NCBI GenBank assembly: GCA_025041175.1 | Contig: JAKCFJ010000001.1 | Span: forward strand, 1,054,001-1,118,000 | Source: Halobacteriales archaeon YIM A00010 | GTDB lineage: Archaea > Halobacteriota > Halobacteria > Halobacteriales > Haloarculaceae | Direction of reading: 5' to 3' | Length of the DNA: 64,000 nucleotides | Shown here: positions 15,433-28,208 of the stretch, one piece after another | How positions within the stretch are numbered: the first letter of the stretch is position 1 | How the letters are laid out: the number at the start of each line of letters is the position of its first letter | Notes under the pieces: generated by a model | What the model was told of the DNA's origin: nothing | The model's input: the letters and a program-made list of their open reading frames with translations, nothing else | The model's database searches: none | Position numbers and translations under genes: made by a program

Positions 15433-18279
15433 ATGGAATTGCACAGCAGAGACGTTCGCCAAGACGTTCGTGAGCTTGGTTCGTTGCTTGGAGACGTTCT
15501 GGCAAGCCAGGCGTCGGAGGGTTCGTTCGAGGCAGTTGAATCGCTTCGGACGACAGCGATCGAGTACCGTCGTGGTGAACGCGGCTCGCGCGCAGAGTTG
15601 CACGACGATCTCACTGGGCTTTCGCCCGAACACAGGCGCAGCGTTGCTCGTGCATTCACGACGTACTTCGAGTTGATCAACCTCGCAGAGGAGCGAGAGC
15701 GGGTTCGTTCGATTCGCTCTGCGTCCCAGAACGAGGAGCTTGCGGGTGGTTTCGCGGACGTAGCCGCCGCATTAAACGATGTCGAGGAGTCGACGGTACA
15801 GGAAATCTCGGACGACGTGTTGATCGAGCCGACGTTCACTGCCCACCCGACGGAGGCCCGGCGCAAGACGATTAAATCCAAGCTCCGATCGATCGAGTCG
15901 ATTCTCGAAACGCTCGATGAACAGGCGCCGACGGACACCGAGCGGGCACACGTCGAACAGACGCTTCAGACCGAAGTCACGAGTCTCTGGCAGACGTCCC
16001 AGGTCCGCAGCCGTCAGCCGACACCGGACGACGAAGCACACAACGTTCAGTGGTATCTCGAAAACGTGCTGTTCGACGTGGTCGGTGACGTGTACACGGA
16101 GTTCGAGTCAGTGTGTGAGAACGATATCGACGCGTCGATCGACGTTCCGAAGCTGTTCGAGTTCCGCTCGTGGGCGGGTAGCGACCGGGACGGGAACCCA
16201 CACGTGACGCCCGACGTGACCACGAGAACGCTCGCCCGTCAGCGGGATATCGTTCTCGACCGGTATCGGGAAGTGCTCGATGGGTTGCTGTCGGTGTTGA
16301 GCCACGACCGCACGCGGTTGTCGCTGGGGGCGGAGTTCCGTCACTCTCTCAGCGAAGACCGGGAGGAGCTTCCCCGGGTGGCCGACGCGGCGTCGGAGGC
16401 GTACCCCGACGAGCCGTACCGACAGAAGCTCCGGCTGATGAGCGAGCGTCTCGATCGGGTCGATGACGTTCGTCCCGGTGGATACGACGACGCTGAAGCC
16501 TTCGGGGAGGACCTAGCGGTGCTGACCGAAAGCGTCCGGAACAACGGCGGCGAGTCGATCGTGGAAACCCACCTCGCCCCGCTCCAACGGCAGATCGACA
16601 CGTTCGATTTCACGCTTGCGAGCTTGGATCTGCGGGATCACCGCGAGAACCACACCGCGACCGTGGCTGAAACGCTCGAACGCGAAGGGATCGAGTACGA
16701 GACGCTCGACGAATCCGAGCGGATATCGGTCCTGACCGATGCGATCACCCAGGAGCAGCCGGTGATCGATCTCGCCGAGACCGAAGAGCTGTCGGAAACG
16801 GCAGCGCGCGTCTGTGAGCGGTTTGCCAGCCTCGCAGACTGGCAGGCTGAGTACGGGAGCCACGCGATCGACACCTACTGTATCAGCATGACCGAGCAGC
16901 CGAGCCACGTCCTCGAAGTGCTGTTTTTAGCGGATCAGGCCGACGTCGTCTCGCTCCCGGACTACGCCGGCATCGACGTGGTTCCGCTGCTCGAAACCAA
17001 ACACGCGCTCTCGAACGCCCGGGAGATCATGGGAACTCTCTTCGAAAACGAGGCCTACGCGCGCGCGCTCTCGTTGCGTGGTGACACCCAGGAGATCATG
17101 CTCGGTTACTCCGATTCCAACAAGGAAAACGGCTTTCTCGCCGCGAACTGGGCGCTGTACCGCAACCAGCGCCGGCTCGGAAACATCACCGAGGAGTTCG
17201 ACGTGGATCTGCGGCTGTTCCACGGCCGGGGCGGTTCGATCTCGCGGGGCGGCGGACCGATGAACGAGGCGCTGCTCGCACTCCCACGCGAAACGGTGAC
17301 CGGTGAGGTCAAGTTCACCGAACAGGGCGAAGCCATCGCGGAGAAGTACGCCAATCCCCAGATCGCCGAGCGCAACCTCGAACAGATGCTCACCGCCCAG
17401 CTTCGCGCCCGGTTGCGGGCACTGCAGGATCCCGAGGAGCCGGTCCAGTCGAACTGGCTGGACGCGATGGAGACGATGGCCGACACCGCCCGCGAGGCGT
17501 ACCAGGACCTCCTCACGACCGACGGGTTCGTCTCGTATTTCGAACAAGCGACGCCGATTCCGGTGATCGAAACGCTCAACCTCGGATCGCGGCCGGCATC
17601 GCGCTCGGACGAACGGTCCGTCGAAGACCTCCGGGCGATTCCGTGGGTGTTCTCGTGGACCCAATCGCGGTGCATTCTGCCGGGCTGGTACGGGCTTGCC
17701 GCGGGGATCGACGCCTACCTCGAGAACAGCGAGGCGCAACGCGCCTCGAGCAGAGAGGCACGAAGTGCCTCAAGCAGTCGGACGGAGTCCGACGACAGCG
17801 AGGAGCAAAGCTCCTCGGGCAGCCGGCCGCAGGCCGGCGACAGCGAGGAACAACGTTCCTCGAGCAACCGGACGCAGTCCGGTGACATCGAAACGCTCCA
17901 GGAGATGTACGAACACTGGCCGTTCTTCCGAACGACGCTCGACAACGCCGCGCTTGCGATCGCGCGCACTGATATGGAGATCGCCGCCGAGTACGCGGGA
18001 CTCGCCGACGAGGATCTCCGCAGCCGGATCTTCCCGCGACTGTCCGAGGAACACGAGCGCGCAGCCGAGCTCGTGTTAGCGATCACGGGGCGCGAACACC
18101 TCATCGACCGCGAGTGGTTACGAAAAAGCCTCGAACGACGCAACCCCTACGTCGATCCACTCAACCTCCTGCAGGTTCAGCTCCTCGGAATGGATCCCGA
18201 CGACCGCTCACCCGAGGAGGAACGCGCGCTCCGGCTCACGGTGAACGGGATCGCTGCTGGGATGAAAAACACCGGATAA
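15433..18279 (+). CDS. ppc: Phosphoenolpyruvate carboxylase
   Basis: 948 residues; carboxylates PEP with bicarbonate to oxaloacetate, replenishing the TCA cycle. Catalytic segments are intact: FTAHPTEARRKT (His near 138), GSDRDGNPHVTP, LGYSDSNKENGF, FHGRGGSISRGGGP, SRPASR and the canonical C-terminal MKNTG. A TATA-like box about 24 nt upstream suggests a leaderless start at 15433. The odd feature is an insert of about 51 residues (767-817) between the DAYLEN helix and DIETLQEMYEHWPFF. It is Ser/Glu/Arg/Gln-rich, repeats every 15 residues, and is encoded by seven perfect DNA hairpins. Without it the length would be about 897, normal for the family. The insert sits in a likely surface loop, so activity should be kept. 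Confidence 0.97.
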   Translation: MELHSRDVRQDVRELGSLLGDVLASQASEGSFEAVESLRTTAIEYRRGERGSRAELHDDLTGLSPEHRRSVARAFTTYFELINLAEERERVRSIRSASQNEELAGGFADVAAALNDVEESTVQEISDDVLIEPTFTAHPTEARRKTIKSKLRSIESILETLDEQAPTDTERAHVEQTLQTEVTSLWQTSQVRSRQPTPDDEAHNVQWYLENVLFDVVGDVYTEFESVCENDIDASIDVPKLFEFRSWAGSDRDGNPHVTPDVTTRTLARQRDIVLDRYREVLDGLLSVLSHDRTRLSLGAEFRHSLSEDREELPRVADAASEAYPDEPYRQKLRLMSERLDRVDDVRPGGYDDAEAFGEDLAVLTESVRNNGGESIVETHLAPLQRQIDTFDFTLASLDLRDHRENHTATVAETLEREGIEYETLDESERISVLTDAITQEQPVIDLAETEELSETAARVCERFASLADWQAEYGSHAIDTYCISMTEQPSHVLEVLFLADQADVVSLPDYAGIDVVPLLETKHALSNAREIMGTLFENEAYARALSLRGDTQEIMLGYSDSNKENGFLAANWALYRNQRRLGNITEEFDVDLRLFHGRGGSISRGGGPMNEALLALPRETVTGEVKFTEQGEAIAEKYANPQIAERNLEQMLTAQLRARLRALQDPEEPVQSNWLDAMETMADTAREAYQDLLTTDGFVSYFEQATPIPVIETLNLGSRPASRSDERSVEDLRAIPWVFSWTQSRCILPGWYGLAAGIDAYLENSEAQRASSREARSASSSRTESDDSEEQSSSGSRPQAGDSEEQRSSSNRTQSGDIETLQEMYEHWPFFRTTLDNAALAIARTDMEIAAEYAGLADEDLRSRIFPRLSEEHERAAELVLAITGREHLIDREWLRKSLERRNPYVDPLNLLQVQLLGMDPDDRSPEEERALRLTVNGIAAGMKNTG
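17731..17883 (+). repeat. In-frame array of seven 17-nt perfect hairpins
   Basis: Seven consecutive elements of 17 nt, each a perfect 7-bp stem with a 3-nt loop, begin at 17731, 17755, 17777, 17800, 17822, 17845 and 17867. Type A: GAGGCGC/GCGCCTC, GAGGCAC/GTGCCTC, GAGGAGC/GCTCCTC, GAGGAAC/GTTCCTC. Type B: GTCGGAC/GTCCGAC, GCCGGCC/GGCCGGC, ACCGGAC/GTCCGGT. From the third on, A and B alternate with a 45-nt period, exactly 15 codons. Arms differ between copies but each change is matched in the opposite arm. It lies inside ppc and is translated. Confidence 0.95.
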
Positions 18280-27223: not shown

Positions 27224-27667
27224 ATGAGTGTTGATTCATCGTTGCAGGACACACTCGGTAGCGACCAGATCGCGTTCACCGACACGCTCGGCGAGGAGAT
27301 CGAGACCATAATCGACGGCGCAAGTCGTCTCCAACGGTATGAGTACGTGGTTGGTGAGATCGTCAACTATCGTGTGCCCGACGATCACGTTCACTTCGAC
27401 CTCATCCACGAGGGATCGCCACTTCACTGCGTGATCTTTGCCTCCCGCCGGCCGGCCATCCCCACAGAGATCGACAACGGGATGCAGGTCGCCGTCGCCG
27501 GCGATCTCACGTTTCACCAACCCAAAAACCACTGTTCGATCGAGGTCGAAGCGGTCGTCCTCCTCGAAGTGGACAACTCTCGTCAGATTCCGACGCGTCG
27601 CCAGCTCACCCTTGTGGCGTTGCTCCTGATTGTGCTGGTGCTCGTTGGCTATCTCATGCTGGGCTGA
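27224..27667 (+). CDS. Membrane-anchored OB-fold-like protein
   Basis: 147 residues. The region 38-115 (YEYVVGEIVNYRVPDDHVHFDL, HCVIFASRR, GMQVAVAGDLTFHQPKNHCSIEVEAV) resembles the OB fold of exonuclease VII large subunits and of nucleic-acid-binding OB proteins. It is followed by a basic QIPTRRQL and a single C-terminal membrane helix (LVALLLIVLVLVGYLML). That topology would place the OB domain in the cytoplasm under the membrane. Function unknown; the OB assignment is by pattern only. Confidence 0.65.
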   Translation: MSVDSSLQDTLGSDQIAFTDTLGEEIETIIDGASRLQRYEYVVGEIVNYRVPDDHVHFDLIHEGSPLHCVIFASRRPAIPTEIDNGMQVAVAGDLTFHQPKNHCSIEVEAVVLLEVDNSRQIPTRRQLTLVALLLIVLVLVGYLMLG

Positions 27668-27677
27668 GCACCATCTT

Positions 27678-28140
27678 GACATCCTCCTCCGCGTAACCGC
27701 GGAGGAATCCCACGGCACCGCACCGCTGGTTTGAGATCTTAGGGTTTGCAGTCCACCACTACGGTCGGAGTCAGAATCTCCGAGCGTAGTCCTGTGAAGG
27801 CACGGATGGACTACTGGGAGTGTCGCCGGACTACGTCCGGCTGCTAGCCAAAACCTTCGGTTTTGGCGATGTCGCCGAGCGAAGCTCGGCTGCTAACCAG
27901 AACGCTATGCGTTCTGGTGATGCCAAGCCCCCGGTACTCCTATCCTCTCCGTGAGGACTCGGAGTTACTTTTGTACCGCAAGAGGGCCCACCGCTTGTTG
28001 TTTCGTTCCCACGAAGGGCACAGCTCGTTTCCGAGATGGGCGGACACTCGAACCGCCAGTTTCGGGCCGTCAAAGACCGGACTCTGTGAGTATCCGGCTC
28101 GACAAGTAAAAGACGTACGGAAGGAGTATCAACATGTCGG
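27678..28140 (-). mobile_element. Decayed IS200/IS605-type element end with TnpB debris
   Basis: A 9-bp stem at 27685-27706 (TCCTCCGCG, loop TAAC, CGCGGAGGA) followed by AATCCC looks like the subterminal hairpin of IS200/IS605-group elements in haloarchaea. On the minus strand, about 27831-28090 encodes LTARNWRFECP and later Cys residues reminiscent of the C-terminal zinc ribbon of TnpB, but the Cys spacing is broken and the frame does not continue. No complete transposase is present. Tentative. Confidence 0.35.
27825..27917. repeat. Second hairpin array, 49-nt period
   Basis: Four hairpins in a row: 27825-27841 (GCCGGAC, loop TAC, GTCCGGC), 27848-27866 (CCAAAACC, loop TTC, GGTTTTGG), 27874-27890 (GCCGAGC, loop GAA, GCTCGGC), 27897-27917 (CCAGAACGC, loop TAT, GCGTTCTGG). 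Spacers alternate TGCTAR and GATGTC-like words. First to third and second to fourth are each 49 nt apart. Same design as the array in ppc, but not in a coding frame. Confidence 0.9.
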
Positions 28141-28208
28141 ATTCATCCTGACCCTAAAGGGCCAGGTATTCTCCTTGATATTGTATAACAGGGTTGTTTT
28201 TCGGGACA

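Follow-up and report, generated by a model that had tools for sequence, protein, structure and literature searches.

The hairpin array and its host remnant

The stretch of DNA analysed here, called the window, is 64,000 nt long and corresponds to positions 1054001-1118000 of contig C1 in genome G000 (5.97 Mb, seven contigs), whose genus is probably Halocatena, as judged from matching loci in named records of that genus. It carries a non-coding remnant of an IS605-like (PATE-like) element that hosts an array of four perfect hairpins with arms of 7-10 bp and loops of 3 nt (Table 1). The successive hairpins (27825-27918) have arms of 7, 9, 7 and 10 bp separated by TGCTA, GATGTC and TGCTA, and the whole reads TGTC-(GCCGGAC tac)-TGCTA-(GCCAAAACC ttc)-GATGTC-(GCCGAGC gaa)-TGCTA-(ACCAGAACGC tat)-GATG, each bracket being followed by the reverse complement of its arm. 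The direct repeat inside the array has a spacing of 49 nt, equal to one copy of a two-hairpin unit. Folding of the array as single-stranded DNA gives z-scores of -6.9 and -8.1, and none of 200 shuffles folds as well on either strand. Two arrays of at least three hairpins are present in the window, this one and another in ppc, and none is found in any of 20 dinucleotide-shuffled windows. The initial annotation of this DNA had reported four perfectly paired hairpins with 3-nt loops and a 49-nt period in non-coding sequence, and had proposed such a shuffling control; it is borne out on all these points. The interval that it gave, 27825-27917, does hold the array, the unit ends lying slightly outside at 27821-27922.

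Table 1. Positions in the window of the array, its parts, the host remnant and the related array in ppc
Feature	Position	Strand	Basis or remark
Whole array, two tandem two-hairpin units, 102 nt, flanked TG...GATG	27821-27922	+	100% identical copy at C2:834769-834870
Unit 1 hairpin A, GCCGGAC-tac-GTCCGGC	27825-27841	+	Hairpin search
Unit 1 hairpin B, GCCAAAACC-ttc-GGTTTTGGC	27847-27867	+	Hairpin search
Inter-unit linker GATGTC, unit 1 end GATG plus unit 2 start TC	27868-27873	+	
Unit 2 hairpin A, GCCGAGC-gaa-GCTCGGC	27874-27890	+	Hairpin search
Unit 2 hairpin B, ACCAGAACGC-tat-GCGTTCTGGT	27896-27918	+	Hairpin search
Right end of array, GATG	27919-27922	+	
Non-coding IS605-like (PATE-like) remnant hosting the array	27677-28189	-	Homologous to L004, L003 and L002
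Near-terminal palindrome of the host remnant, CCTCCGCG-taac-CGCGGAGG	27686-27705	.	Read from sequence
Related seven-hairpin array in ppc (ORF 15433-18279)	17730-17883	-	In frame, about 153 nt

Homologues of the host remnant lie at C1:1582376 (L004), C4:214849 (L003) and C2:834739 (L002). L003 has no array: it is uninterrupted at the array site, where it reads CTGGCAGTGCCACACTACCGG against CTGGGAG-(array)-CCAAGCCCCCGG in the window. L002, a diverged remnant, carries the same 102-nt array, 100% identical to that of the window and in the same position. Since the right flanks of these two arrays are also identical over 24 nt, the pair could result from duplication or conversion. A different hairpin pair occupies the homologous remnant site in L007. 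In L004, a remnant of the same family, a different hairpin pair lies further along (L004:1639-1690), near CCTATCCTC. Rfam searches gave only matches below gathering scores, among them a weak one to sot0042 on the minus strand of the remnant (E 1.8e-4, 28.6 bits versus a gathering score of 88). HgcC also matches weakly over the remnant end (window 27663-27778, minus strand; E 0.032, below gathering).

A family of two-hairpin units

The repeated unit is about 50 nt long and has the grammar TC-(hairpin A)-TGCTA-(hairpin B)-GATG. This grammar is common to the ppc array, in agreement with the first impression that both arrays are of one design. G000 contains 32 matches to the pattern TGTCGCC..GGCTGCTANCC and none to the same pattern read backwards. 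A covariance model of the two-hairpin unit, built from 30 units, gives 155 matches in G000 (E up to 0.01), a figure that includes both strands and often counts one place twice; further arrays, for which a genome-wide search had been suggested, are thus present. At E up to 1e-6 the model has matches in 33 of 39 related genomes, and the exact pattern occurs in 19 of the 293 genomes of the order. A pattern search over all genome contigs finds at least 99 stretches; among the matches listed, the haloarchaeal ones are paired inside and the bacterial ones have no paired middle, with one short exception (L170). The same search in viral contigs finds six stretches, none of them paired.

The loci collected from G000, which include arrays of several linker classes, yielded 281 hairpins. 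Their arms are mostly 7-10 in length and the loop has 3 nt in 244 of the 281. The hairpins come from a limited set in which conserved outer bases recur, mostly [GA]CC; stems vary among copies, though single subtypes are identical. The arms of the window array had been taken to be unrelated between copies, a view that is not upheld, as the outer bases are common (GCC..GGC, ACC..GGT) and the inner words belong to a limited set. A sister class of hairpin arrays, with linkers GACGTT and GCCA (equivalently AACGTC and TGGC), is found at L012, L253, L259, L262 and L265.

Insertions in ordinary genes and in a multicopy gene family

An insert of about 153 nt (about 51 codons) in ppc is absent from five of five aligned congeners, and the site of an in-frame purL insert of about 51 nt, which follows CTATC, is empty in five of five as well; a sixth genome, G296, was left unaligned in this comparison, its match coordinates being those of G283. 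The gene of an AMP-binding ligase contains an exact insert of 57 nt, also in frame, at a site that is empty in seven of seven aligned homologs, four of them from congeners. The empty sites show that copies were inserted into pre-existing sequence. Short junction repeats are present at inserts, copies inside coding genes occur in either orientation, and the units at L028, L036 and L037 carry stops or shift the frame. An ORF of glycoside hydrolase family 3 (L027:9-2099, 697 aa) reads through at least eight hairpins. Beside purL there is a separate repeat of about 210 bp (L256:810-1018, contig C1 of G000) that recurs tens of times in the genome, in full or in part.

Units are also found in a genus-restricted multicopy gene family present in 7 of the 59 relatives searched, with 1-35 matches per genome and 35 in G000. 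The family, represented by L014:717-959 and 1012-1434, has a CxPC..GCAH motif; Pfam has no family for its two pieces, nor for L016, L250 and L226. In G000 five copies of the gene contain a unit, 51 nt long; in G295 the unit has 55 nt and is present in 5 of 10 sampled copies. G295 is probably Halocatena pleomorpha, since its copies equal loci recorded under that name. In all ten filled copies the unit stands directly after a TGG codon and before TGY, a site that is empty in 24 G000 copies, as counted without L371, L383 and L396, whose anchor motif was not found (L393, too short, was kept out of the tree). Within species the units differ by 0-10 of 51 nt (G000) and 0-4 of 55 nt (G295), several pairs by an inverted loop alone. 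The 60-nt flanks of filled copies differ by 4-15 nt per side and in most cases begin to do so 3-6 nt from the junction, the exceptions being a right-hand first difference 9-27 nt away in 5 of 20 pairs and a left-hand one at 7 nt in one pair. The AU test rejects a single clade of filled copies for G295 with G293 (12 rows, p=0.0021); for G000 (29 rows, three changes) such a clade is not rejected (p=0.196). TGYCG is present at the site in 5 of 5 filled and 6 of 24 empty copies of G000, and in 0 of 5 filled copies of G295.

Copies of the unit therefore recur at one site in diverged members of the gene family. This recurrence between TGG and TGY within differing flanks points to site-specific insertion. 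The pattern is most simply read as repeated insertion at one site; alternatively, it may reflect conversion confined to the unit. Ribosomal bypass or splicing of the unit was considered, since the gene-family units carry stops or shift the frame, and was dropped because the same genomes contain many intact, empty paralogs. Close copies show mainly synonymous differences in the codons that directly follow the unit; selection acting while copies were intact, with the unit arriving recently, accounts for stops and frameshifts combined with synonymous downstream codons.

A different explanation is that hairpins spread passively, by template switching during replication or by gene conversion between the short identical ends TGTC and GATG, the same events copying one arm onto the other and flipping loops with no dedicated enzyme. 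Flipped loops and the exchange of whole hairpins at one site are outcomes expected of cruciform or template-switch events, and the short junction repeats are in line with them. We nevertheless find this explanation rather unlikely in view of the exact unit boundaries and of the recurrence after the same codon in diverged copies whose flanks differ mostly from 3-6 nt onwards, as a microhomology of 2-4 nt alone does not explain the choice of site.

Target site and proposed growth of arrays

Insertion, the reading that we retain, occurred mostly 3' of GRTG. This motif forms the left flank of 11 of 13 standalone units in G000 (13 of 37 units were kept as standalone, L014 being left out as "tandem") and of 5 of 5 units in G295, in a count where the gene-family copies amount to one site and which is biased towards TG because most G000 loci were collected with the TGTCGCC pattern, so that the information lies in the two bases that precede TG. 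The left flank of the window array is AGTG and that of the purL insert CTATC, neither of which fits GRTG. An inserted unit ends in GATG and would in this way recreate a new target each time, arrays growing by repeated insertion at the recreated target. If so, the GATGTC linkers inside arrays would correspond to the end of one unit followed by the start of the next.

Search for a mobilising enzyme

The Y1 family (PF01797) has matches in 21 of the 39 relatives and G000 itself has four Y1 genes. Element and Y1 counts are weakly correlated over 39 genomes (Spearman 0.41, p 0.0096). PF01797 has no match in 13 of the 33 element-bearing genomes, and four Y1-less genomes have 14-26 matches to the unit model, for example G227 (26) and G204 (21); some Y1-less genomes are incomplete (G227, 94%), making loss of the enzyme possible there. 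A resident Y1 transposase is thus not required, contrary to what an association with TnpA, put forward for checking in the initial annotation, would imply. No mobilising enzyme was found, which counts against an explanation by a mobile element. The link to IS200/IS605 elements suggested at the outset is sound for the window, where the host remnant of the array has an IS605-like end hairpin, and fails as a general rule because many copies reside in ordinary genes.

These data bear on the possibility that an IS200-type Y1 transposase moves the units as its non-autonomous, REP/REPIN-like partners. The hairpins come in pairs, each with a short tag on its 5' side, and the units insert 3' of a short motif without clear target duplication; the four Y1 genes of G000 and the weak correlation of counts agree with such a partnership. 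It is made improbable by the 13 element-bearing genomes devoid of PF01797, four of which have 14-26 model matches, and by the repertoire of Y1 subclasses, of which the IS200-type alone is placed in archaea in the available part of the source (PMC6006769).

Evidence for pairing in DNA rather than RNA

In the covariation analysis 98.5% of 600 cells are paired, and both sides have changed in 63 cases, compared with 19.2 (sd 2.7) after shuffling. A set of 149 distinct hairpins contains single mismatches of the GT/TG type in 8 cases, of the AC/CA type in 10 and of other types in 3. This lack of a G-U excess argues against RNA, as selection for RNA pairing on one strand would favour GT. The three-nt loops comprise 89 GNA and 93 TNC (182 of 244), compared with 5 of 42 among background hairpins of the window outside arrays, and a C-G pair closes 262 of 281 array hairpins and 13 of 42 background ones. 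Units from other genomes have GNA or TNC loops in 53 of 85 hairpins and C-G closing pairs in 80 of 85. The loops are near-symmetric under reverse complement, the C-GNA-G form, which is a very stable DNA triloop, being favoured on one strand or the other. Among clustered units that share a site, 32 loop pairs differ by at least two bases, and in 24 of them one loop is the exact reverse complement of the other; the pairs are not phylogenetically independent.

Loop flips, C-GNA-G triloops and the missing preference for G-U speak for DNA and not for RNA. Together with the clean empty sites they favour a DNA-level process that spreads paired arms, as had been proposed; the further idea that arms are newly made and unrelated each time is not supported, the hairpins being drawn from a limited set. 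A role of the hairpins in RNA, be it as terminators, as processing signals or within TnpB guide RNAs, with selection acting on RNA pairing, is very unlikely: the array does fall in the region of the weak sot0042 match (below gathering) and selected RNA stems likewise show strong covariation, but G-U mismatches (8) are not in excess over A-C ones (10), loops are near-symmetric under reverse complement with C-GNA-G on one strand or the other, copies sit inside coding genes in either orientation, and L003, a related remnant, lacks the array.

A probable miniature mobile DNA element

We favour the hypothesis, which we consider probable, that a miniature mobile DNA element of about 50 nt, composed of a hairpin pair and fixed linkers, makes up the window array as two copies in tandem. 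A single DNA strand folding into hairpins would be moved, cut and rejoined by a putative enzyme acting in trans, in a manner that would resemble IS200/IS605 or REP systems. The inner arms would change as whole hairpins, by replacement from other copies and by loop inversion, and so stay perfectly paired. More tentatively, and as a possibility to which we give less weight, the units could be archaeal transposable hairpins of a class not recognised so far: a DNA triloop pair of about 50 nt inserting site-specifically after GRTG without a resident Y1 enzyme, building arrays by regenerating its target, exchanging or inverting whole hairpins that yet stay perfectly paired, and contributing in-frame segments to housekeeping proteins.

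In at least two species a gene family in tens of copies serves as a natural trap for insertions, where site choice, unit boundaries and hairpin change are directly readable. The in-frame inserts in ppc and purL indicate a way in which essential proteins may gain length from such elements, and loop flips allow hairpin dynamics to be read directly in a living genome.

Comparison with known systems

Hairpin elements like REP, RPE and SMR are common and, for several groups, the mover is not known. The nearest description is that of SMR-A of Haloquadratum walsbyi (HqIRS42, 43 and 55), non-coding, high-copy elements of about 110 bp without target duplication; in the accessible text their insertion sites lie inside near-terminal palindromes of PATE and IS605-type elements, and their mobilisation is called enigmatic (PMC3119063). 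Compared by description, the window array belongs to the same size class and has the same kind of target, its 102 nt lying in such a remnant; the window, L002 and L007 arrays occupy homologous remnant sites that fit a near-terminal target, and L003 is empty. Differences are the many unit copies found elsewhere, ordinary genes included, and a mobile unit of about 50-60 nt. SMR copies, according to the same partial text, are commonly more than 95% identical and have prominent terminal inverted repeats, whereas stems vary widely here; the array ends TGTCGCC and GGTGATG are only partly complementary. In the haloarchaeal literature covered, mostly open journals, the units are undescribed apart from the SMR/PATE paper (PMC3119063).

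Bacterial REP, BIME and REPIN sequences with their RAYT transposases are likewise short, tagged hairpins that form pairs and arrays and are dispersed in high copy. The TC/TGTC and TGCTA tags located 5' of paired hairpins correspond to this organisation. REP stems are conserved within a family, whereas the array stems vary, and the absence of the Y1 family PF01797 from 13 of 33 element-bearing genomes is a further difference. IS200/IS605 elements similarly have hairpins near their ends, cause no target duplication and insert 3' of a short motif. Fixed-motif insertion is shared (GRTG at 11 of 13 standalone units in G000 and 5 of 5 in G295, from a TG-biased collection), but the unit is made of hairpins and linkers alone, with no gene inside.

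Rickettsia palindromic elements and CGTC/TGTC-tagged palindromes are inserted in frame in unrelated genes and have no known transposase, as described in the available portion of PMC3733652. A TGTC or CGTC tag likewise precedes the hairpin, and in-frame coding insertion is also seen here in ppc, purL and the AMP-binding ligase. Stems of 8-9 bp starting with A-T and loops of 4-5, as given in that portion, differ from the arms of mostly 7-10 with outer pairs mostly [GA]CC and the loops of 3 in a haloarchaeal host, and the term "Halo" does not occur in that paper. Since no known system agrees with the units in all its defining features, we place them as a variant of miniature palindromic mobile elements.
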